Assembly: GCF_005049235.1 (NCBI RefSeq)
Contig: NZ_SUMD01000002.1
Span: 186,001 to 250,000, forward strand
Length of the DNA stretch: 64,000 bases
DNA from: Rhodococcus oryzae
GTDB taxonomy: Bacteria > Actinomycetota > Actinomycetes > Mycobacteriales > Mycobacteriaceae
Direction: 5' to 3'
The notes beneath the pieces are model-generated. The model was not told the origin of the DNA, made no database searches, and saw only the letters and a list, made by a program, of their open reading frames with translations. Positions within the stretch are counted from its first letter, which is position 1. Every line of letters begins with the position of its first letter. Both the position numbers and the translations under genes were made by a program. Shown one piece after another: positions 25,048 to 40,127 of this stretch.

Positions 25048-25865
25048 GGTGCGGCGAATCCCGCCCCGGCGAGCACCTGACGGCCGGTGGGCCCGGTGAC
25101 GAGTTCGACGAACTCTGCTGCGGCGGGGCTGTTCTCGGAGCTCTTGAGCTCGGCGATCGGGTAGGTGTTCACGGCGCCAGCGGACTCGGGGAACGGGACC
25201 GTGGCGACGGCGGCGCCGGCGCCCGCGGCGTCGGTGACGTAGACCAGCCCGGCATCCGCCTGACCGGAGGTGACCTTCCCGAGCACATCGGTGACCGAGG
25301 ACTCCTCGCTGACCGGCGTGATGTCGGTGCCGGTCGTCTCCTCGATCTTCTGGGTCGCCGCCCCGCACGGCACCTGCGGCGCGCACACGACCACCTGGTT
25401 GCCCGGGTTCGCGAGGTCGGCGAAGGTGGCGATGTGCTTCGGGTTGCCGGGCGGGGTCACGATGGTGAGCGTATTGGTGGCGAAGTTCACCGGGGCGGTC
25501 GCGGTGAGCCCGGCGTCGACGGCCTTGGTCATGTTCTTGGTGTCGGCGGAGGCGAACACATCCGCGGGCGCGCCCTGGGTGAGCTGGGCGACCAGGTCGG
25601 ACGAGCCTGCGAAGCTGAACTCGACGTTGGTGCCGGGGTGCTCGGCCTCGAACTTCTCGCCGAGCTCGGTGAACGTCTTCTTCAGCGAGGCCGCGGCGAA
25701 GACGGTGATGTCGCCGCTGACCGGGGAGGCCGCCGCGGACGTGGTGGTGTCCCCGGCCGGCGCGGAGTCCGAGCTCGAGCAGCCGGCGACGAGGGTGGCG
25801 GCGGTCAACGCGGCGAGCGCCACGGCCGTCGGGCCGATGCGCATCGCGCGGGAAGTGCGGGTCAC
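25044..25865 (-). CDS. modA: Molybdate-binding lipoprotein
   Basis: A 273-residue substrate-binding protein. The signal peptide has the basic n-region [11 protein letters not shown] and a lipobox ending LVAGC, making Cys29 the lipidated residue. The mature protein has the ModA motifs [34 protein letters not shown] and [15 protein letters not shown], with Ser residues for oxyanion binding. It delivers molybdate (or tungstate) to ModBC. The GTG start at 25865 overlaps the stop of the upstream HTH-TOBE gene (GTGA). Molybdenum would serve molybdopterin enzymes, none of which are in the window. Confidence 0.93.
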
Positions 25866-26266
25866 GACATTCCTCCTGGGGTTTCGACGATCACGGTGGT
25901 CGCCTTGACCACCGCCACGGCGACCTTCCCGGGCTCGAGCCCGAGTTCGGCCGCGGATTCACTGCTCATCAGCGAGACGACGGTGAAGGGGCCGCACTGC
26001 ATCTGCACCTCGGCCATCACCTTGTCGGCGGTCACCTTGGTGACCAGGCCGACCAGGCGGTTGCGGGCGGAGCTGCCCACGCCGAGCGGGTCCGGCGGGG
26101 GCGTCGCGTGCTCGCGGGCGAAGTCGGCGAGGACCTTGCCGTCGATGACCTTGCGGCCCGACGCGTCCTTGGTGGCGGCGAGGCTGCCGCCGTCGATCCA
26201 GCGACGGACGGTGTCATCGCTGACCCCGAGCAGCGCGGCCGCGTCCTTGATTCGTATCGACGACAT
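25862..26266 (-). CDS. HTH-TOBE molybdate-responsive regulator or molbindin
   Basis: A 134-residue protein with two parts. Residues about 3-50 are a MerR/excisionase-type HTH ([20 protein letters not shown], then a [13 protein letters not shown] wing). Residues about 65-133 are a single TOBE/Mop domain ([20 protein letters not shown] and [16 protein letters not shown]), the molybdate-binding fold of molbindins and ModE. It leads the mod operon, coupled to modA by a GTGA overlap, so it is the probable molybdenum sensor that controls the operon, replacing the larger ModE. ATG 26266 is preferred because GGGA lies 6 nt upstream; another ATG is 2 codons earlier. Confidence 0.85.
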
Positions 26267-26303
26267 GAGCATTCCCGTCTGTGTTTCTTATCTGCGTCCT
26301 CAA

Positions 26304-29669: not shown

Positions 29670-29687
29670 GATGAACCGCCGTTCACG

Positions 29688-29713
29688 CCCCTGAAGGGTT
29701 ACCCCTTCAGGGG
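29688..29713. terminator. Bidirectional terminator that includes the opposing stop codon
   Basis: A perfect 11-bp inverted repeat (29688-29698 and 29703-29713) with a 4-nt loop, 18 nt after the aldehyde dehydrogenase stop. The minus-strand MFS gene ends at 29707, so its stop codon lies inside the right arm. Confidence 0.8.
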
Positions 29714-31218
29714 TGCTGAGCGGGTACGTCCACCGGTGCGGTGGCTGTGTCTGCCTCGCCGCCTGTCGGTTCCACCGAGTCCGCCGGCTTGCGAACGAAG
29801 AGGCATACCGCGATCAGCACGAACGACAGGATCCCGGCGACGAGAAAGACCGCCCGCACACCCTCGACGATGGCCTCGGGTGAATCGGCTGGGTCGACGG
29901 ATCGCGAGGAAACCACCGTCATCACTGTGACGAACAATGCCGTACCTGCGGCACCGGCAACCTGCTGGAACGTGCCAACAACTGCCGAACCGTGCGCGTA
30001 GAGGTGGGGGGCCACCGATCCCAATCCCGATGTCATGAGCGGTGTGAACGTCGCCGACAGACCAAGGCACAGAGCCATGTTCGACAACAGCAGCCACCAC
30101 AGCGAGGTCGAAGTGCTCACCGCCGTCAGCATCCACACGCCGATGCTGACGAGGATCGATCCGGGGATGACCAGCACGAGTGGACCCCGCCGGTCGTAGA
30201 TGCGGCCCACGATCGGTCCGGCGACACCCATGAGAAGGCCGCCGGGGAGGGTGATGAGACCCGTTTCGAACGGGTCGAGGTGAATCACCGACTGCGCGAA
30301 GTACGGGACGATGATGAAGGTGCCCATCATGGTTCCCATGCCGACCAGCATCGCGACAACAGAGATGGTGAACTGGCGGGATCCGAACACGCGTAGGTCC
30401 AGCAGGGCGCGGTCTTCGCGTTGCAGCCTGGACTGTCGGGCGATGAAGCCGAACATCGCGCCCGCACCGATGAGGAAGGGCAACCACACCGGGGTCGTCG
30501 AGGACCCTTGCGCCGATTCACCGATGCTCACCAGGCCGTACACGAGTCCACCGAATCCGAGTACCGCGAGTGGGACCGACAAGAGGTCGATGCGCGCCAT
30601 CGTCGTCTCGGACACCGAAACGACGAATCGTGCGCCGATGACCAGCGTCGCCAACGCGAACGGGGCCACGAATCCGAAGATCCAACGCCACCCGAAGTGG
30701 TCGAGTATGAATCCCGACACCGTGGGGCCGAGGGCAGGCGCAACCGCGATCACGATGGAGATGTTGCCCATCATCGCCCCCCGGCGAGCAGGCGGTACGA
30801 GCGTCATGATCGTCGTCATCAGCAGTGGCAACATGATCGCCGTACCTGATGCCTGCACGATGCGGGCGATCAGCAGCACACCGAAGCCGGGTGCGGCGAA
30901 CGCGATGAGAGTTCCCGCCGTGAACAGCGACATGGCGAGCGTGAACAGGGTGCGGGTGGGGATGCGCTGGATGAGATAGCCGGTGAGAGGGATGATCACC
31001 GCCATCGTGAGCATGAACGCGGTCGTGAGCCACTGCCCCACGCTCGGAGGTACGCCCAGTTCGACCTGCAGGACCGGGATGGCGATGGTCATCACCGTCT
31101 CGTTGAGGATCACCACGAAGGTGGCTACCAACAGGACACCGATCACCTGGAGGTGGCGCCGTTCGATTCGGTCGCCGACGACGACGCCATCGGTCTCGAG
31201 ACGGGTGGACTCGGTCAC
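29707..31218 (-). CDS. MFS exporter, DHA2 (EmrB/QacA) family
   Basis: A 503-residue protein with about 14 predicted helices. Motif A-like GYLIQRIPTRTLFTLAMSLF follows helix 2; motif C region is IVIAVAPALGPTVSGFILDHFGWRW in helix 5, which marks the drug:proton antiporters of this family. GTG at 31218 has GAAAGG 7 nt upstream. It lies 135 bp downstream of, and in the same direction as, the thioesterase-PKS cluster, so it is a candidate exporter of that product, though the gap leaves room for its own promoter. General multidrug efflux is the alternative. Confidence 0.88.
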   Translation of the reverse strand: MTESTRLETDGVVVGDRIERRHLQVIGVLLVATFVVILNETVMTIAIPVLQVELGVPPSVGQWLTTAFMLTMAVIIPLTGYLIQRIPTRTLFTLAMSLFTAGTLIAFAAPGFGVLLIARIVQASGTAIMLPLLMTTIMTLVPPARRGAMMGNISIVIAVAPALGPTVSGFILDHFGWRWIFGFVAPFALATLVIGARFVVSVSETTMARIDLLSVPLAVLGFGGLVYGLVSIGESAQGSSTTPVWLPFLIGAGAMFGFIARQSRLQREDRALLDLRVFGSRQFTISVVAMLVGMGTMMGTFIIVPYFAQSVIHLDPFETGLITLPGGLLMGVAGPIVGRIYDRRGPLVLVIPGSILVSIGVWMLTAVSTSTSLWWLLLSNMALCLGLSATFTPLMTSGLGSVAPHLYAHGSAVVGTFQQVAGAAGTALFVTVMTVVSSRSVDPADSPEAIVEGVRAVFLVAGILSFVLIAVCLFVRKPADSVEPTGGEADTATAPVDVPAQHP

Positions 31219-31353
31219 GGTGGACCTTTCGGATGGTGGGAACTGGGGTCACCCCGGCGGCCGACGGAACAGGGTGGGGTGGTTATCGAACTTACTGGTC
31301 CGTCACGCTGCCTGCCACTCGATTTCGGTGCGTGATTCGTGACCATGATTCGA

Positions 31354-32133
31354 TCATTCCTTGCGATCGGCGGAGGCGGCGCGCGCGTAGCCGCGGAGCA
31401 GCGGCCGCAGCAGGCGGAACAGCTCGTCGGGTGACTCGTCGAGGTAGAAATGATCGCCCTCGAGGATCTGCGGGTCGGTCGGGTGGGTCGTGTGCCGGCT
31501 CCAGGCGCGGAGGTCGAGCTCGCCGACCAGCGGATCCGCATCGGCCCCGAACAGGTGCATCGGGCAGGCCAGCGGCGCCTCGCCGGGATCCCGGTGGTCC
31601 GCGCACATCCGGACGTCGTCCCGGATCACCGGCAGCGCCGCCTCCAGCCAGGCGGGCCATCCGAGGATCTCGGCGGGCAGCCCACCGATGGCGGTGAGGA
31701 ACCGCGCGAGCAGGGCGTCGTCCAGATGGTCGATCGGCGGTAGCGGCGCAGGGAGGTGCGGGGCCGCGTACGCCGAGAGCAGCAGCGCCTCGGGCCGCCG
31801 ATGGCCGCCCGCATCGCGACGCCGTGCCAGCCGGTACGCGACGAGTGCGCCCATGCTGTGCCCGAAGAACACGTATGGGCCAGAGAGGTGTTCGGCGAGA
31901 TGGTGTTCGAGATCGTCCAGGAGCAGGTCGAGGTCGACGAACCGTTCGTGTTCCGCGCGTCTGCCCCGTCCCGGCAGGTGCACGGGCACGACGGTGACGT
32001 GCGGGCCGAGGGCGCGATGCCACGCCCGGTACATCGACGATTCGCCGCCCGCGTGATGGAAGCAGAACATCCGCAGCGCCGTGTCGGATCCGACCCCGTC
32101 CTCGAGATACGGCGTCAGGGGCGCGGTCTCCAT
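31354..32133 (-). CDS. Type II thioesterase of the PKS cluster
   Basis: A 259-residue alpha/beta hydrolase of the TEII (GrsT) type. MFCFHHAGGESSMYRAW is the N-terminal oxyanion segment, the nucleophile Ser is in FFGHSMGAL near residue 94, the acid is in FGADADPLV and the His in EGDHFYL. TEII enzymes act in trans to clear misprimed or stalled acyl chains from carrier proteins. The start codon lies 2 nt after the PKS stop, so it belongs to the same operon. Because chain release is expected from the PKS C-terminal oxoamine synthase, this enzyme is more likely for editing than for release. Confidence 0.88.
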   Translation of the reverse strand: METAPLTPYLEDGVGSDTALRMFCFHHAGGESSMYRAWHRALGPHVTVVPVHLPGRGRRAEHERFVDLDLLLDDLEHHLAEHLSGPYVFFGHSMGALVAYRLARRRDAGGHRRPEALLLSAYAAPHLPAPLPPIDHLDDALLARFLTAIGGLPAEILGWPAWLEAALPVIRDDVRMCADHRDPGEAPLACPMHLFGADADPLVGELDLRAWSRHTTHPTDPQILEGDHFYLDESPDELFRLLRPLLRGYARAASADRKE

Positions 32134-32135
32134 GA

Positions 32136-35100
32136 TCAGTGCCCCTCTTCCAGCAGGGCGAGCTCCTCGGCCGTGGTCTTCACGGTGTAGCGGATCTGAT
32201 CCTCGGTGTGGCAGGACGTCACGAAGAAGCGCAGCCGAGCCTGATCCTCCGGCACCGCCGGATACAGGATCGGGTTGACGTTGATCCCCCGGGTGAGCAG
32301 CGCGTTGGACAGCTTCAGGGTCTTGATCGAATCGCCCACGATGCAGGGGATTATCGGGGTGTCGCAGCTGTCACCGGTGTCGAGCCCGGCCTCGACGGCC
32401 TGGGTCAGGAAGAGCCGGGAATGTCGGTGCAGGCGCTCGAAAAGCTCTGGCTCGTTACGCATCTGCCGCAGGGCGGCCAGCGAGGCGGCGGCGTTCGACG
32501 GTGTCATGCCGACGCTGTAGATGAACCCGGGGGTGGTGTATTTGAGGTACTGGATCAACGCGCGGCTGCCGGCCACGTAACCCCCGCACCCCGCCAGGGC
32601 CTTCGACATCGTGCCGGACCACAGCTCGACGTCGGCGCGGTCGACGGCGAAGTGTTCGCCGATACCGCCGCCGGTGGCCCCCAGCACCCCGATGCTGTGT
32701 GCCTCGTCGATCATCAGCAGGGCGTGATGCTTGCGCTTGACCGCGATCACGGCGGGCAGATCCGGGATGTCCCCGTCCTGGCTGTACACACCCTCGATGA
32801 GGATCAGCACTCGGCGGAACCGCGGCCGGATCTCGGTGAGGATGGCGTCGAGGGCAGCGTGATCGTTGTGCGGGAACGATCTTCGGGTGGCACCGGAGAG
32901 TTTGCAGCCCTGCAGGATGCTGTCGTGGGCCAGGCTGTCGTGGATGACGAGGTCGCCCTCGCCGACGAGGTGACCGATCACGGTCACGTTGGTGGCGTGG
33001 CCGCTGACGAGCGCGATGGCGTCCTCCGTGCCGAGCAGCCCGGCGAGCTCCGCCTCGAGTTGCCCGTGCAGGGGCTTCTCCCCGGAGATCAGCCGGCTGG
33101 CCGAGCAGGAGCTGCCGTAACGGGCGACCGCGTCCTGTACCGCGGAGACGACGCGTGGGTGGCCGGACATGCCGAGGTAGTTGTAGCTGGAGAAGTTGAG
33201 GACCTCCTGCCCGTCGATGATCGAGGTGTCCCTGGTGATCCCGTCGTTGACCAGGAAGTACGGGTTGGACAGGCCGTTGGCCTCGCCGAGAGTCAATCGC
33301 TCGGCGATCTCCCTGACCTCGGGGAACTGCTCGATGAGGTAGGTCTCGGTCGCGATCTCGTCAGTTGCCGCGTTCGGTGGGACGACGGGACGTGCGGACC
33401 CGGTATCAGCCGCCTTGTCCGGCGCCGCCGGGGCGGGCGCAGCGCCGAGCTGCGCGGACACCATGGCCACCAGATCACCGACTGTGCTGGTCGGCGAGAA
33501 CCAGGCGGGCTCGGCGGTGAGTTCGGGGAACCTGCGCGCCAGCCCGGACACCAGGTCGGCCACCATGATCGAGTCGAACCCGAGCTCACCGGACATCGTC
33601 TGGGAGGACCGCAGCGTGTCGGCGGAATAGCCTGCGATCCGGGCGATCTCGGCGCTGACCACGGCGGTGACGGTGTCGGAGGTGACCTCGCGTGCCGGAG
33701 TCACGGCGCTCGCCTGCGGCCGGATCGCCGCGGCGGCGGTCACGGTGTCGGGCGCGGCGCCCGGTGCCGCCGGGCCGGACTGGGCGGCGAGCAGTGCGGT
33801 CTGCTCACGGAAGAGGGAGATCAGGTTGTCCATGGTGGTGTCCTCGCTGCGTACGGATATGGGGGCATCGGCGGGTGACTCTTGTTCCGGTGCTGTCGAA
33901 TTCGTCAATGAAACGGACGCGCCGGGCGTCCAGTAGCGGTGGGTGGTGTCGAAGTCGTAGCCGCCGAGCGCCGTACGAACCCGCTGTGCCGGTTCGTACA
34001 GGGCATCCCAGTTCGGGTTGTGGCCGTCCCGGTACAGGGCCGCGACGACCTCCGTGAGCTCGCGCCCCGTCGCCGCCGGACCCGGGCAGGGAACGAGGCA
34101 GGTGAGTTCGGGGTTGGCGCGGGCGACCATCGGTGCGAGTACGCGCCTCGGTCCGAGCTCGATCAGGTGGGTGGGGCCGCTTTCCAGCCCGGCCGCCAAC
34201 GCATCGCCGAACCGGACCGTCCCGCGGATGTGCTCGGTCCAGTAGTCGGCGTCCATCGGATCGCCGAGGTCGAGGAGGCCCCCGCGCAGGGTCGAGTAGA
34301 CCGGGATGCGGGGCGGCTCGAAGGTGCAGTCCGCGGCGACGGCGCCGAACGCGGCCACCATCGGCTCCATCAACGGGGAATGGAACGCGTGGGAGACGGA
34401 CAGCGTCCGGACGGATACGGAGCGGGCGGTGAGTTCCTCGGCGATCCGCGCGAGGGTCTCGGCGGCGCCCGAGAGCACCAGCTCGCGTTGGCCGTTGACG
34501 GCGGCGACCGCCGCCATGGGCTCGTCCGCGAGGAGGTCGGCGACCTCCGAAGCGGCGGCGCGGACGGCGAGCATGGCGCCGCCGGCGGGGAGCTGCTGCA
34601 TGAGCCGTCCCCGGGCGACGACCAGCCGGCAGGCGTCGTCCAGACCGAACACCCCGGCGAGCGTCGCGGCCGCGTACTCGCCGATGCTGTGGCCGATGAC
34701 CCACGACGGTTCGACTCCGGAATCGGTGAGTGTGCGTGCCAGCGCGTACTGCACCGCGAAGATTGCCGGCTGTGCGTGCTCGGTCCGGTCGAGGTCCTCC
34801 CCGCCCAGCACCAGGTCGCGGATCGACCGGCCCAGGTGCGTCGTCATCCGCTCGTCCACCTCGGCGAGCGCGCGCCGGTAGCTCCCGGACTCCGCATACA
34901 GCGGGCCGGACATGCCCCGGTACTGCGATCCCTGGCCGGTGAACAGCCACCCGGTGCTCACTCCCCCGGCCAGGCCCGCCGCGGCGGCGAACCGGCCGTC
35001 GTCGGTGACCAACTCGCGTAGGTCCGAGATCGCCTGGTCGCGGTCCCGCACCGGCAAGGCCAGGCGATGGCGCCCGGACGACTTGACCTCGTTGCTGGAC

Positions 35101-36509
35101 CAGCACATCTGCGCCAGTCGTCCATCGGGCAGTCCGGCGAGATCATCGGCCATCCGGGCCACGTTGCGCCGCAACCCGTCCCGGCTCGCCGAGGACACGG
35201 TCAGCACGCCCCCACCGGGGCATTCGGACGCCGGTGCGCGTTCGGGCGCGCTACCCAGCAGCAGGTGTGCGTTGGTGCCGCCGATGCCGAAGCTGCTCAC
35301 GCCGCCGTAGACCGTGCCCTCGGGCAGGGGCAGCGCCTCGGTGAGCAGGCGGAGGCCGTGGTCGGTGAGGCGGAGGCGTGGATTCTCCTGTGCGGCAAAT
35401 CGACTGGGTGGCACCATGCGGCGGTGCAGGCTCAGTGCCGCCTTGATCAGTCCGGCGACACCGGCGGCGCCCTCGGTGTGGCCGAGGTTGCCCTTGATCG
35501 AGCCGACCGCGCAGGGCTGTGACCGCGGCACCGCATGCAGATGGCCGAGTGCCTTGGCCTCGATCATGTCGCCGAGCACGGTCCCCGTGCCGTGGGCCTC
35601 GACGAAGGCGACCTGCTCGGGTCGCACGCCCGCGCGCCGGTACGCCTCGCCGACGACCTGCTGTTGCGCCCAGCGGTTCGGCGCGGTGATCCCGTTGCTG
35701 CGGCCGTCGGAGTTGACCGCGCTGCCCTTGATCACCGCATAGATCGGAAGTCCCTCGCGCCGAGCGTCATCCAGGCGTCGCAGCACGAGCACGGCGACAC
35801 CCTCGCCTCGGCCGATGCCATCGGCGTTCTCGCTGAACGGCTTGCAGCGCCCGTCGGGTGCGGAGAGCCCGGCTTGGGCGTAGAAGACGTTGAGGGTGGG
35901 TGTGAGGATGATGTTGACACCCCCCGCGAGGGCCTGATCGCACTCGCCTGCCCGGAGGGCCGCGCAGGCCATGTGGACGGCGACCAGCGAGGACGAGCAG
36001 GCGGTGTCGACCGCCACGCTCGGTCCCCGCAGGTCCAGTTGGTAGGAGATCCGGTTTGCGGTCATGAAATATCCATTGCCGGAACCGAGTTGGGGTGTGA
36101 TCTTCGCGTAGTCGCTCAGGTGCAGGTTCGCCCATTCGTTCGCCATCACACCGACGTACACACCGGTGTTCGAGCCGGCTTGGGCGCGCGGATCGAGCGT
36201 GGCGTCCTCGAACGCGCGCCAGGCGGCCTGCAGCAGCAGTCGCTGCTGCGGATCCATCGCCTCGGCCTCGCGCGGGGGGATGCTGAAGAACTCGGGGTCG
36301 AAGGCGTCGGCGTCGCTCAGGAAGCCGCCGCTCGTGTTGTTGACCCTGCCGGGGCCGCCCTTCGGGTCGTAGAAGTCGTCGGCGTGCCACCGCTGGGCCG
36401 GGACCTCGGTGATGCCGTCCCCGCCGTCCATCAGCAACGCCCACAACGCTTCCGCGTTCGGGGCCTGCGGGAATCGGCAGTCGAGTCCGACGATCGCGAT
36501 GTCGGTCAT
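32136..36509 (-). CDS. Polyketide synthase KS-AT-ACP fused to an alpha-oxoamine synthase (PLP-dependent release domain)
   Basis: A 1457-residue single-module enzyme. KS (about 1-425): Cys171 in DTACSSSL, His306 in EAHGTGT, His344 in GNLGHTEG. AT (about 520-830): Ser608 in GHSIGEY and HAFH at 707-710, the malonyl-CoA signature. ACP (about 945-1020): Ser980 in ELGFDSIM for phosphopantetheine. No KR, DH, ER or TE domain is visible. The last part (about 1055-1457) is an AONS/KBL-like alpha-oxoamine synthase with ASRLISGEKPLHGQLE, Asp1268 in MIDEAHS and PLP lysine Lys1303 in GTMSKALAGCGGY. It would extend an acyl-ACP by one malonate and release the beta-ketoacyl chain by decarboxylative condensation with an amino acid. 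ATG 36509 overlaps the ACP stop by 4 nt, which fixes the start. The amino acid used is unknown. Confidence 0.9.
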   Translation of the reverse strand: MTDIAIVGLDCRFPQAPNAEALWALLMDGGDGITEVPAQRWHADDFYDPKGGPGRVNNTSGGFLSDADAFDPEFFSIPPREAEAMDPQQRLLLQAAWRAFEDATLDPRAQAGSNTGVYVGVMANEWANLHLSDYAKITPQLGSGNGYFMTANRISYQLDLRGPSVAVDTACSSSLVAVHMACAALRAGECDQALAGGVNIILTPTLNVFYAQAGLSAPDGRCKPFSENADGIGRGEGVAVLVLRRLDDARREGLPIYAVIKGSAVNSDGRSNGITAPNRWAQQQVVGEAYRRAGVRPEQVAFVEAHGTGTVLGDMIEAKALGHLHAVPRSQPCAVGSIKGNLGHTEGAAGVAGLIKAALSLHRRMVPPSRFAAQENPRLRLTDHGLRLLTEALPLPEGTVYGGVSSFGIGGTNAHLLLGSAPERAPASECPGGGVLTVSSASRDGLRRNVARMADDLAGLPDGRLAQMCWSSNEVKSSGRHRLALPVRDRDQAISDLRELVTDDGRFAAAAGLAGGVSTGWLFTGQGSQYRGMSGPLYAESGSYRRALAEVDERMTTHLGRSIRDLVLGGEDLDRTEHAQPAIFAVQYALARTLTDSGVEPSWVIGHSIGEYAAATLAGVFGLDDACRLVVARGRLMQQLPAGGAMLAVRAAASEVADLLADEPMAAVAAVNGQRELVLSGAAETLARIAEELTARSVSVRTLSVSHAFHSPLMEPMVAAFGAVAADCTFEPPRIPVYSTLRGGLLDLGDPMDADYWTEHIRGTVRFGDALAAGLESGPTHLIELGPRRVLAPMVARANPELTCLVPCPGPAATGRELTEVVAALYRDGHNPNWDALYEPAQRVRTALGGYDFDTTHRYWTPGASVSLTNSTAPEQESPADAPISVRSEDTTMDNLISLFREQTALLAAQSGPAAPGAAPDTVTAAAAIRPQASAVTPAREVTSDTVTAVVSAEIARIAGYSADTLRSSQTMSGELGFDSIMVADLVSGLARRFPELTAEPAWFSPTSTVGDLVAMVSAQLGAAPAPAAPDKAADTGSARPVVPPNAATDEIATETYLIEQFPEVREIAERLTLGEANGLSNPYFLVNDGITRDTSIIDGQEVLNFSSYNYLGMSGHPRVVSAVQDAVARYGSSCSASRLISGEKPLHGQLEAELAGLLGTEDAIALVSGHATNVTVIGHLVGEGDLVIHDSLAHDSILQGCKLSGATRRSFPHNDHAALDAILTEIRPRFRRVLILIEGVYSQDGDIPDLPAVIAVKRKHHALLMIDEAHSIGVLGATGGGIGEHFAVDRADVELWSGTMSKALAGCGGYVAGSRALIQYLKYTTPGFIYSVGMTPSNAAASLAALRQMRNEPELFERLHRHSRLFLTQAVEAGLDTGDSCDTPIIPCIVGDSIKTLKLSNALLTRGINVNPILYPAVPEDQARLRFFVTSCHTEDQIRYTVKTTAEELALLEEGH

Positions 36510-36793
36510 GATGCCGCTGCTTCCGGCGCGAGCTCGCTCGCGAGGTATCCGGCGATCTCCGCGATCGTGGGGTAGTCGAAGACCAGGGTGGCGTCCGCGG
36601 GGATCCGCCACCTTTCCTCGACCTCGCCGCACAGGCTCAGCGCGGATACCGAATCGATCCCGATCTCGGCGAGGGGCGTCGTCGGATCGATGTCCGGGGC
36701 GGGGACGTCGAGGTAGCCGGCGACCCGCTCGACGAGCCAGCGCGTTATCGGCGCGAGAGCGGCGGCGGTGGGGGTGGAGATTGTGGTGGACAT
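36506..36793 (-). CDS. Free-standing acyl carrier protein
   Basis: A 95-residue ACP with the phosphopantetheine serine at Ser48 in LAEIGIDSVSAL, preceded by the usual DPTTP turn and followed by VFDYPTIAEIAGYL. It lies between the acyl-AMP ligase gene and the PKS gene and overlaps the PKS start (ATGA). It probably accepts the fatty acyl group from the ligase and passes it to the KS. No phosphopantetheinyl transferase is encoded in the window. Confidence 0.9.
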   Translation of the reverse strand: MSTTISTPTAAALAPITRWLVERVAGYLDVPAPDIDPTTPLAEIGIDSVSALSLCGEVEERWRIPADATLVFDYPTIAEIAGYLASELAPEAAAS

Positions 36794-36839
36794 GGGGGTA
36801 CTCCTCGTGGTTCCGGGGGTGGGTGGCAGCGGACAGCGT

Positions 36840-38576
36840 TTACGCGGCGCCGCGCAGCCGTTGCACGGTGGTGGCGATGTCTTCGTGGAGCAGCGCGTGG
36901 ATCCTGTTCTCCAGGAATGACTTGCGCATCAGGCGGCGCTGAACCTTGCCGCTGGTGGTGCGGTGCACCCCGCGGCGATCGACCAGGACCACATCGGGTG
37001 CGGGCACCTCGAAGTGTCGGGACACCGCGACCTTGATCAGCGACGTGACCTCGGCGAGGGTGATGCCGTCGAGCAGCGCGGTCCTGACCTCCTGGATCAC
37101 CAGTAGCCGCTCCTGCCGTCCGGCGTCGATCGAGAGCGCCACCCCGGCGGTCCCGGCGAGCGCGGGGTGAACGTCGCGGACGACCTCCTCGATGTCCTGG
37201 GGATAGAGGTTGCGCCCGTTGATGATCAGGAGATCCTTCAGCCGGCCGGTGACGAATATGTGGCAGTGGTGGCGCAGGCCGAGATCCCCGGTACGCAGGT
37301 ACGTCCCCTCCCCCGCCAGCTCGGCCCCGAACGTCTCCGCGGTCTCCTCCGGGCGGTTCCAGTAGCCGGCGGTGACGCTCGCGCCCCGAACCCAGATCTC
37401 GCCGACTCGATTGTCCGGCAGCGCTATTCCGGTGTCGGGGTCGACGATGCGGATATCGAGATCCCGCGGGGGTCCGCTGCTGACCAGCCGGACGCCGGTG
37501 CCGTCGGTGGTCAGTACGGCCACATTGCGTTCCAGGGCCGCCGCGTCGACGTCGATGCGGACCGGTGGTTCGCCGGCCCGGCTCGCGGTGGCGAGCAGCG
37601 TCACCTCGGCCATGCCGTATCCAGTGACGAACGCGTGCGGCGGGAAGCCAGCGGTCCCGAGCCGCTCGATCACGGCGTCGAGGGTGCGGGATCGGATCGG
37701 CTCCGCACCGTTGAGGGCAACCCGGAGCGAGGACAGGTCGAGGCCGGCCAACTGCTCGTCGGTCGCGCGCCGGGCGACCAGCTCGTAGGCGAAGTTCGGC
37801 GCGACGGTGAACTCGGCGCGGTACCGGTCGATCAACTCCAGCCAGCGGACCGGGCGCTTGAGGAAGGCCAGTGGGGAAATGAATGCGGCATCGGCCCCGG
37901 CATAGAGGGGCAGCAGCATCGAGATCAGGCCCATGTCGTGGAAGTGCGGAAGCCAGCTGACCCCGGTCGCGGCGTCGTCGAAGCCGACCGTCGCCGAGAT
38001 GGTCGCCTCGTTGTGCAGCAGGTTGCCGTGGGTCACCATGACGCCCTTGGGTTCACTCGTCGAGCCGGACGTGTACTGCAGGAAGGCAACCGTGCGTCCG
38101 TCGAGATCGGGCATCCGCCACGCGTCGGCGTCGCCCAACTCATCGGCGTCGGTGCTCACGCAGGACACCGTCTCTGCGCGGCCGTTGTCGGCGATCCACG
38201 CGGTCAGGAGCTCGGCGTAGGCGGAGGTGGTGAGGACGAGGCCGATGTCAGCGTCGTCCAGCACCCCGGCCACCCGCTGCGTGCTCTGCTGGTCGTGTGG
38301 CAACGGGGCGGGCACGGCGACGACCCCCGCGTACAGGCAGCCGAGGAAGGCGGGCAGGAAATCAATGCTGTCCAGGTAGAGCAGCAGGACCGGCCGGTCG
38401 GCCTCCGGGCGCTGCGACAGCCAGGCTGCCGTTGCCCTGGCCCTGCGGTCGATCTCGCGAAAGCTGAGAACCTCCTCGACCAGGTCGAGCCCGACCTCGC
38501 GGTGGTAGGTGTAGGAGCGGGTGTCGCCGTGGGCGCCGACCTGGGCGCGGACGTGTGAAACGAAATCGGGGTACAC
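36840..38576 (-). CDS. Fatty acyl-AMP ligase (FAAL) loading the PKS
   Basis: A 578-residue ANL-family enzyme of the FAAL (FadD32/FadD26-like) branch: FLQYTSGSTSEPKGVMVTHGNL, VSWLPHFHDMGLI, VTGYGMAEVTL, YLRTGDLG, and the extended KDLLIINGRNLYPQDIE block. The DMGLI segment and the loop before the C-terminal subdomain are typical of FAALs, which make acyl-AMP and load it on an ACP rather than CoA. GTG 38576 has GAGGAAAG 7 nt upstream and is preferred over the in-frame GTG 8 codons earlier. It is the first gene of the FAAL-ACP-PKS-TE operon and is divergent from glucosylglycerate hydrolase. The C-terminal Lys region TTSGKVQRRLM is intact. Confidence 0.9.
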   Translation of the reverse strand: MYPDFVSHVRAQVGAHGDTRSYTYHREVGLDLVEEVLSFREIDRRARATAAWLSQRPEADRPVLLLYLDSIDFLPAFLGCLYAGVVAVPAPLPHDQQSTQRVAGVLDDADIGLVLTTSAYAELLTAWIADNGRAETVSCVSTDADELGDADAWRMPDLDGRTVAFLQYTSGSTSEPKGVMVTHGNLLHNEATISATVGFDDAATGVSWLPHFHDMGLISMLLPLYAGADAAFISPLAFLKRPVRWLELIDRYRAEFTVAPNFAYELVARRATDEQLAGLDLSSLRVALNGAEPIRSRTLDAVIERLGTAGFPPHAFVTGYGMAEVTLLATASRAGEPPVRIDVDAAALERNVAVLTTDGTGVRLVSSGPPRDLDIRIVDPDTGIALPDNRVGEIWVRGASVTAGYWNRPEETAETFGAELAGEGTYLRTGDLGLRHHCHIFVTGRLKDLLIINGRNLYPQDIEEVVRDVHPALAGTAGVALSIDAGRQERLLVIQEVRTALLDGITLAEVTSLIKVAVSRHFEVPAPDVVLVDRRGVHRTTSGKVQRRLMRKSFLENRIHALLHEDIATTVQRLRGAA

Positions 38577-38786
38577 GGGGGCTCTTTCCTCGGGGTGCAC
38601 GATGCGGTCGAACGACGAGTTCGGGGTGCGCTGGGAACGTCCTCAACACTTGTTGGCCGCGGCTCCGGTGACTACGGACCCTTGGGGTGGTGCGACGGAC
38701 CCCCGGGTGTGGGCATTTCTCACCAAGGAAGGCCCGAGACGTCACCCCGACGGGCGCAATCGGCGCGGCGGACGCAAACTAGGACG

Positions 38787-40127
38787 ATGGCCGCCGATCC
38801 CGGATTCATCCCGACCCAGCTCGCGGCCCGGGCCGCATACCTGCTGCGCGGCAACGACCTGGGCACCATGACCAGTGCGGCGCCGCGCCTGTACCCGCAC
38901 ATGTGGAGCTGGGACGCGGCGTTCGTCGCGGTCGGGCTGGCGCCGCTGAGCGTGGAGCGGGCCGTCGTCGAGCTGGACACGCTGTTGTCCGCGCAGTGGG
39001 GCAACGGGATGATCCCGCACATCGTGTTCGCGAACGGCGTCGACGGGTACTTCCCCGGGCCCGCGCGGTGGGCCTGCGGCGAGCTGGCGGCGACGGCCCC
39101 CGTCGTCCCCCAGACCTCGGGCATCACCCAGCCGCCGGTGCACGCGATCGCGGTCCAGCGCATCCTCGACCACTCCCGCAGGCACGGTCGCAGCACCCGG
39201 GCGGTGGCCGAGGAGTTCCTCGACCGGCGCTGGGGCGATCTGGTGCGCTGGCACCGGTGGCTCGCGACCGCCCGCGACCCGAAGGACAACGGACGGATCA
39301 GCCTGTACCACGGCTGGGAGTCCGGCATGGACAACTCGCCGCGCTGGGATGCCGCGTACGCGAACGTCGTTCCCGGACAGGTGCCGCCCTACCTGCGCGA
39401 GGACACCGCGATCATCTCCGACCCCACGCAGCGGCCGTCGAACGCCGAGTACGACCGCTACCTGTGGCTGCTCGAGGAGATGAAGCTGGCGCGCTACGAC
39501 GACGCCGAGCTGGCCTCCACGATGAGCTTCGCCGTCGAGGACGTGTTCGTCAGCGCCGTGTTCTCGCTCGCCTGCGACGTTCTCGCCACCATCGGCGAGG
39601 AGCATTCGGCGCCGAAGTCCGACGTCCGGGACCTGCGGTACTGGGCCGAGAAGTTCCAGCGGGGCACCATCGCGACCACGGACCCGCGGTCGGGCGCCGC
39701 CCGCGACTTCGACCTGCGGTCGGGGCGCTGGATCCCCACCGAGACGCTCGCCATGTTCGCCCCACTGCTGTGCGGCGGGCTGGACCGCGACGCCGAGCGC
39801 GCGCTGGTGCGGATCTTCGAGGGACCGCGGTTCTGCGGTCATCCGGATCTTCGGTACGCGGTGCCGCCGTCGACCTCGCCGGTCTCGGGCGACTTCCGGC
39901 CGCGCGAGTACTGGCGCGGCCCGGTGTGGCCGGTGATGACCTGGCTGTTCTCCTGGGCGTTCGCCCGCCGCGGGTGGGCCGAGCGGGCCCGGCACCTGCG
40001 GGCGGAGGGTCTGAGGCAGGCCGCCGACGGCAGCTTCGCCGAGTACTACGAGCCGTTCACCGGCGCGCCGCTGGGGAGCATGCAGCAGTCCTGGACCGCG
40101 GCCGCGGTGCTGGACTGGCTCGGCTGA
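38787..40127 (+). CDS. Glucosylglycerate hydrolase (GH63-like)
   Basis: A 446-residue (alpha/alpha)6-barrel enzyme that matches Mycolicibacterium hassiacum GgH almost throughout, as I recall that sequence and its length of 446. The three residues known to be essential there are present at identical positions: Asp43 (SWDAAF), Asp182 (SGMDNSPRWD) and Glu419 (SFAEYYEP). It hydrolyses glucosylglycerate to glucose and glycerate in the cytoplasm, releasing stored compatible solute after nitrogen limitation ends. ATG 38787 lies after AGGAC; the longer in-frame frame back to 38595 is shadow of the FAAL spacer. There is no signal peptide. The gene is monocistronic and ends in a hairpin. Confidence 0.93.
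   Translation: MAADPGFIPTQLAARAAYLLRGNDLGTMTSAAPRLYPHMWSWDAAFVAVGLAPLSVERAVVELDTLLSAQWGNGMIPHIVFANGVDGYFPGPARWACGELAATAPVVPQTSGITQPPVHAIAVQRILDHSRRHGRSTRAVAEEFLDRRWGDLVRWHRWLATARDPKDNGRISLYHGWESGMDNSPRWDAAYANVVPGQVPPYLREDTAIISDPTQRPSNAEYDRYLWLLEEMKLARYDDAELASTMSFAVEDVFVSAVFSLACDVLATIGEEHSAPKSDVRDLRYWAEKFQRGTIATTDPRSGAARDFDLRSGRWIPTETLAMFAPLLCGGLDRDAERALVRIFEGPRFCGHPDLRYAVPPSTSPVSGDFRPREYWRGPVWPVMTWLFSWAFARRGWAERARHLRAEGLRQAADGSFAEYYEPFTGAPLGSMQQSWTAAAVLDWLG

Follow-up and report, generated by a model that had tools for sequence, protein, structure and literature searches.

In passages on undecylprodigiosin biosynthesis, RedL is described as adding malonate to an acyl chain loaded onto it and then condensing the product with glycine to yield 4-keto-2-undecylpyrroline (PMC11188435, PMC12654105). 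The hand-over of the chain between RedJ and RedL is described in a passage of PMC4147253, and an A-CP-KS-AT-PLP protein is listed for S. griseoviridis in part of PMC3870968. We analyzed a stretch of 64,000 nucleotides from Rhodococcus oryzae (NZ_SUMD01000002.1, positions 186,001 to 250,000; hereafter the window), whose genome comprises 5.37 Mb in 31 contigs. The window carries a four-gene cassette encoding a probable fatty acyl-AMP ligase (FAAL), an unfused acyl carrier protein (ACP), a polyketide synthase (PKS) fused to an α-oxoamine synthase (AOS) and a type II thioesterase (TEII). With a probability of roughly 0.7 we read this cassette as a stand-alone, split RedL-type assembly line. By analogy with RedL, its product is probably an oily amino-ketone or a pyrrole-like ring, assembled from a fatty acid, a single malonate unit and an amino acid.

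Pfam and NCBIfam confirmed all four genes and the domain order, ketosynthase (KS), acyltransferase (AT), ACP and AOS in the PKS, that an earlier note made from the sequence alone had described as a complete minimal line (Table 1). The genes are tightly packed on the minus strand, the ACP stop overlapping the PKS start and the PKS and TEII genes lying 2 bases apart. On the question of FAAL or CoA-ligase, the best NCBIfam matches are fatty-acid--AMP ligase models, every one below cut-off. Similarly, the AOS domain, a Pfam Aminotran_1_2 member, falls among the NCBIfam models for bioF (1.1e-104), serine palmitoyltransferase (SPT) and glycine C-acetyltransferase (KBL), all below cut-off, and its closest solved structures are SPTs (PDB 3a2b, 4e-72). 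It has the fold-type I pyridoxal phosphate (PLP) domain of the AOS family, as judged from sequence only, with the catalytic lysine, the stacking histidine and the HDS and GTxSK motifs. HAFH in the AT is a motif that we take to be malonyl-type. As the earlier note had stated, reductive domains are missing: a Pfam scan of the 1,457-residue PKS gave no KR, DH, ER or MT match.

The catalytic motifs that the earlier note had called intact stand at the positions it gave (Ser48, KS Cys171, HAFH at 707-710, Ser980 and Lys1303), and the catalytic residues, whose loss in orthologues it had named as a possible refutation, are kept across the orthologues. In a census of the window protein and 44 orthologues from named genomes (45 PKS-AOS proteins), KS Cys171, His306 and His344, AT Ser608 and PLP Lys1303 are each conserved in 45/45, while the first histidine of HAFH and Ser980 of the internal ACP are each found in 44/45. 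The TTSGK lysine motif occurs in 43 of the 43 ligases examined. Of the remaining two loci, L173 has no FAAL match and in L171 the frame is broken off at the start of the match.

Since RedL has the same domain and step order, the fusion and loading found in the window represent known chemistry. The claim that no characterised actinobacterial pathway combines them is not supported in view of RedL/RedJ of the Streptomyces prodiginine clusters, as far as passages of PMC11188435, PMC12654105 and PMC4147253 go. A RedH model run against 295 Streptomyces-type genomes identified 12 carriers, all over cut-off, and ten of these (L114, L131-L139) formed our RedL comparison set. In all ten, a ligase-ACP-KS-AT-ACP-AOS stretch is located close to RedH, and after it come a RedK-type NAD-epimerase and a thioesterase (TE); the free-ACP match is missing in L134 and L135 and the internal-ACP match in L138, L139 and L114. 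Identity to the window proteins in L131-L139 is 41-42% for the FAAL, 40-43% for KS-AT, 50-54% for the AOS and 37-42% for the TE (42, 41, 52 and 41% in L114). Window and RedL share the order of FAAL-like ligase, ACP, KS, AT, ACP and AOS, a TE nearby, the lack of a reductive PKS domain, and AOS signatures. Unlike the three proteins of the window, RedL is one chain, seen as single frames in L114 and L116; in L114, Pfam places the ligase, two ACP stretches, KS, AT, AOS and the epimerase within one frame of 3,170 residues. RedK (query from L114) is adjacent or fused in 10/10 RedL loci but was found in 0/44 orthologous loci, within the flanking DNA searched, and not in the window, which also lacks the RedH context of the RedL loci. 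To judge from the sequences, the window cassette would function like RedL yet outside the prodiginine pathway; two RedL features, the single chain and RedK, are absent from it.

A RedL-type module might also supply one branch of a larger pathway, prodiginine or other, that is completed elsewhere in the genome. A genome of the same taxonomic order (G635/L116) does have a prodiginine-like cluster that includes a fused RedL-like protein, and a passage of PMC12153302 reports a prodigiosin biosynthetic gene cluster in two N. salmonicida genomes (2025). However, the window's genome gave no RedH-family match, with the caution that a loose look yielded no candidate at all there, compared with weak paralogues below cut-off in 14/14 control genomes. 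None of the 44 named cassette genomes reached 1,350 bits, the cut-off for RedH, and we took the weaker matches of 343-386 bits in 14/44 as paralogues. RedK gave no match in the window or in the 44 loci with the flanks searched, and we consider such a branch very improbable. Membership in the prodiginine pathway itself was rejected, there being no RedH over cut-off in the own genome or the 44 others and no RedK beside the cassette. In G635/L116, the fused RedL-like protein has 2,489 residues and lies beside a RedN-like AOS and three proteins that stay below cut-off, one RedH-like (1,006 bits against 1,350), one RedW-like and one PigJ-like; RedK gave no match. N. salmonicida NBRC 13393 (L164) contains the cassette and has no RedH-family match at 1e-100.

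Phylogenetic trees were built from chosen locus subsets (60 rows for the AOS, 42 for the KS, 25 and 26 for the FAAL and TE) with SH-aLRT support. The AOS tree places RedL and the window in one clade of 46 rows (support 100), apart from RedN-type AOS, SPT, KBL and ThAOS. Within it the window clade comprises 17 rows (support 99) and its neighbour (support 88) is a KS-AT-ACP-AOS family without FAAL from Streptomyces and related genera. GH(A/S)TN, HDS and DEAHS signatures are common to the window and RedL AOS, and the RedN, SPT, KBL and ThAOS rows shown are without them. The RedN/PigH-type AOS of ring B likewise off-loads a β-ketoacyl carrier thioester with an amino acid (a passage of PMC11188435) but belongs to its own AOS group and has no KS-AT on the same chain. 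Consistent with the AOS tree, the window FAAL groups with the RedL ligases (SH-aLRT 87). The TE tree tests nothing, because it consists of two groups only and has no outgroup.

Several observations weigh against a RedL-type line. The trees are quick and have long branches, flagged in the AOS tree. In the KS tree, RedL versus the window clade is unresolved among modular KS, and the FAAL-less family falls in another KS group. The AOS domain is 61-66% identical to that of the FAAL-less Streptomyces/Kibdelosporangium family and 58-59% to that of myxobacterial metagenome-assembled genomes (MAGs), compared with 50-54% for RedL; being nearer to non-RedL families, it may not use glycine as its amino acid. 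In the alignment column taken to be ALAS Thr83, RedL has threonine and the window clade serine, as in SPT and RedN. Near this presumed amino-acid site the window reads SASRL and RedL SATPL, a sequence difference that may reflect another amino acid than in RedL.

The serine at this column and the SPT structures nearest to the AOS would suit a sphingoid-base route, in which the AOS would act as an SPT on a saturated chain, like SgaA/SgaB, and give 3-ketosphinganine-like lipids. According to passages of PMC12134224, a PKS with a separate AOS makes sphingolipids in Pseudomonas fluorescens, so that in SgaA/SgaB of strain MYb115, as here, an AOS releases the PKS chain. The same passages describe that AOS as having shown SPT activity, SgaA as iterative with saturated products, which would imply a reducing system, and an SDR reductase in the cluster. 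In contrast, the window PKS has no reductive domain match, the window AOS falls in the tree with AOS domains fused to a PKS, separate from SPT, and no reductase was a recurrent neighbour of the cassette in different genera in a neighbour clustering of 24 loci (the window and L059-L081; the 44 named loci lie outside it). Overall, we regard the sphingoid route as improbable.

For the RedL-type line we propose the following course, modeled on RedL and on enzyme family. The FAAL is predicted to activate a fatty acid as acyl-AMP and load it onto the free ACP. The KS would take over the acyl chain, the AT would put malonate on the internal ACP, and one decarboxylative condensation, presumably a single round, would give a β-ketoacyl-ACP, which would stay unreduced because KR, DH and ER are absent. 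The fused AOS, through PLP-Lys1303, would then off-load the chain by condensing the thioester with a small amino acid under loss of CO2, releasing an α-amino-diketone, R-CO-CH2-CO-CH(NH2)R'. Candidate co-substrates are glycine, as in RedL, or serine/alanine. Attack of the amine on the distal ketone could close a 2-alkyl-4-oxo-pyrroline, comparable to 4-keto-2-undecylpyrroline. As RedK is not beside the cassette, no cassette enzyme accounts for alkylpyrrole formation. TEII may free or clean acyl-ACP, either RedJ-like or as an editing enzyme. By this analogy the likeliest product would be an alkyl aminodiketone, or the 2-alkyl-4-pyrrolinone formed by its closure.

Table 1 Features of the cassette and its flanks (positions in the window).
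Feature	Position	Strand	Size or residues	Evidence and motifs
FAAL	36840..38600	-	586 aa	Pfam AMP-binding 3.1e-62
Free ACP	36506..36793	-	95 aa	Pfam PP-binding 3.6e-15; Ser48 in GIDSV
PKS-AOS (KS-AT-ACP-AOS)	32136..36509	-	1,457 aa	Pfam, NCBIfam and translation
KS domain	35250..36506	-	2-420 (also bounded as about 2-369)	Cys171, His306, His344; Pfam/NCBIfam
AT domain	34071..34949	-	521-813	GHSIGE and HAFH (707-710); Pfam
Internal ACP	33459..33659	-	951-1017	Ser980; Pfam
AOS PLP domain	32172..33266	-	about 1082-1446	PLP Lys1303
TEII	31354..32133	-		Pfam Thioesterase 1.1e-37; GHSMG
DHA2-type MFS efflux gene (flanking)	29707..31218	-		TIGR00711 over cut-off
Divergent gap, FAAL/glucosylglycerate hydrolase	38601..38786			hydrolase start presumably about 38787

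The cassette is found well beyond its own genome. Among 301 family genomes, 22 (its own included) have an AOS of at least 73% identity over near full length, and two further ones retain 205-213 AOS residues at 79-80%. In these two (L084 and L085, from G229 and G203), about half an AOS at 79-80% lies beside a TE and the next ACP-like stretch is 4-6 kb off; they are apparently disrupted cassette copies. In the 21 loci from other genomes (L059-L079), FAAL, ACP, KS-AT, internal ACP and AOS occur together in 20, the exception being L073, which stops at a contig end; in L063 the FAAL match covers 360 residues. A TE match was found in 10 of the 21. Two other family members (L080, L081) have a PKS-AOS with an AOS of 56-58% identity and the FAAL downstream rather than upstream.

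A scan of named genomes gave 323 loci; of the 80 best, which were kept, 44 (L140-L183, 72-82% identity) are of the orthologous type. They come from Nocardia, Rhodococcus, Prescottella, Antrihabitans, Skermania, Smaragdicoccus, Mycobacterium, Mycolicibacterium and one Nocardiaceae MAG. FAAL and free-ACP matches are present in 43/44 (not L173), the internal ACP in 43/44 (not L171) and a TE in 13/44; in L175 and L183 the free-ACP match lies upstream on the opposite strand. As these sets overlap, their counts do not sum. The conserved gene order without a characterised product that the earlier note had named as support is borne out as far as the literature passages covered go: in these, from which subscription papers were mostly absent, we found no description of the cassette or its product, and PMC4035055 and PMC5550956 do not mention 'aminotransferase' or 'oxononanoate'.

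The genes around the cassette vary among loci: some belong to histidine biosynthesis or to ABC transporters, others encode a glycogen branching enzyme or a lipase. The cassette is a self-contained unit that sits in different gene settings across genera. In the 24-locus clustering, neighbour families present in at least three loci were common to close kin, namely six loci of the genus Rhodococcus or three of the genus Nocardia; MmpL was the one family that crossed genera. Using that MmpL as query, we obtained matches of 55-88% in 8/44 named loci; several of the loci have short flanks, in which an MmpL may be missed. Pfam MMPL was also matched in loci scanned. The gene directly follows the PKS or TE in seven of the eight and lies upstream in L178. 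In such relatives, we would expect the MmpL next to the cassette to carry its product to the envelope. Tentatively, and at somewhat less than even odds, we propose that these cassettes make an undescribed, widespread lipid class of mycolic-acid actinobacteria, alkyl aminodiketones/2-alkyl-4-pyrrolinones built by a RedL-like cassette from a non-glycine amino acid and placed in the envelope by MmpL.

An aminodiketone could instead be a diffusible signal, like the α-aminoketone/α-hydroxyketone autoinducers of CqsA-type AOS. The cassette is small and without tailoring genes, and its AOS gave a match of 2.3e-44, below cut-off, to NF005526, a CqsA-type model. On the other hand, neither a receptor nor a regulator is among the window neighbours scanned and the MmpL neighbours suggest a lipid, which makes a signal quite improbable. 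The absence of an adjacent regulator, also claimed earlier, applies to a scan of nine genes between 26.5 and 41.1 kb; the nearest helix-turn-helix gene among those scanned (25862-26272) is beside ABC-uptake genes. A promoter scan of the divergent gap upstream of the FAAL gave no sigma-70-like site. The glucosylglycerate hydrolase on the far side of the gap (38595-40127; NF047898, 759 bits, over cut-off) is present in 6/6 genomes of the genus including its own. In five congeners the aligned sequence starts at 38733, 38745, 38770, 38794 and 38794 of the window, and the true start of the hydrolase is probably near 38787.

The MFS gene that the earlier note had taken for an exporter is confirmed as a gene, but a link between it and the cassette is not supported. 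A 95% homologue is kept in the nearest species, the sister species G001, where no cassette was found (no full-length PKS match, no AOS match at 1e-60). The 44 named loci contain no MFS above 26% identity to it, and it is not a conserved partner of the cassette. It probably lies outside the cassette unit, and a dedicated exporter role is likewise unsupported. The GMC, ALDH and MFS genes of G001 match the window at 89% DNA identity, and two contigs that we infer to adjoin end at the cassette site. Past two frames without a Pfam match, these contig ends hold type I restriction genes. In G003, about 480 bases replace window positions 29670-38745 (about 9.1 kb), and both cassette and MFS are missing; this gap would also fit their arriving together and speaks against reading the MFS as unrelated. 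None of the five other genomes of the genus has a full-length PKS match or an AOS match at 1e-60. The cassette site (31.3-38.7 kb; compared loci L230, L231, L232) is variable and the cassette is accessory.

If our reading is true, the chemistry that serves a single step in making a pigment operates as an independent lipid pathway in a number of Nocardia and Rhodococcus genomes and in some of mycobacteria, and its product mass can be tested directly. Genome-mining tools that go by RedL similarity alone might then label such loci 'prodigiosin'.

Other PKS-AOS families frame this comparison. The large FAAL-less family of Streptomyces, Kibdelosporangium and kin (L106, L108, L184-L206, L208, L209, L213-L215, L217, L219) shares KS-AT-ACP-AOS on one chain with the window and has the closest AOS domains outside the orthologues. 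It differs in its KS clade and in KS-AT identity (32-41% by best segment), and the DNA searched around these loci gave no FAAL match of at least 30%. Four of four scanned members (L106, L184, L185, L200) have no reductive domain; in L185 Pfam detects KS-AT-AOS, and the ACP was found by tblastn only. A phosphopantetheinyl transferase is next door in both loci looked at (L106, L108), and MmpL lies beside L106. For L196 and L197, the record titled Rhodococcus rhodnii NRRL B-16535 and that of Kibdelosporangium aridum DSM 43828 have nearly the same match coordinates, and mislabelling is possible. In the myxobacterial MAGs (L207, L212, L216, L218), a FAAL of 34-36% identity precedes a frame of 2,340-2,370 residues. 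L207 encodes a reducing PKS-AOS of 2,358 residues, KS-AT-ACP-KR-DH-AOS, with KR and DH between ACP and AOS. The mycobacterial PDIM and sulfolipid pathways combine FAAL loading, PKS extension and MmpL. The cassette shares the first two with them and has MmpL near some of its carriers, but differs in its predicted release by an AOS with an amino acid.

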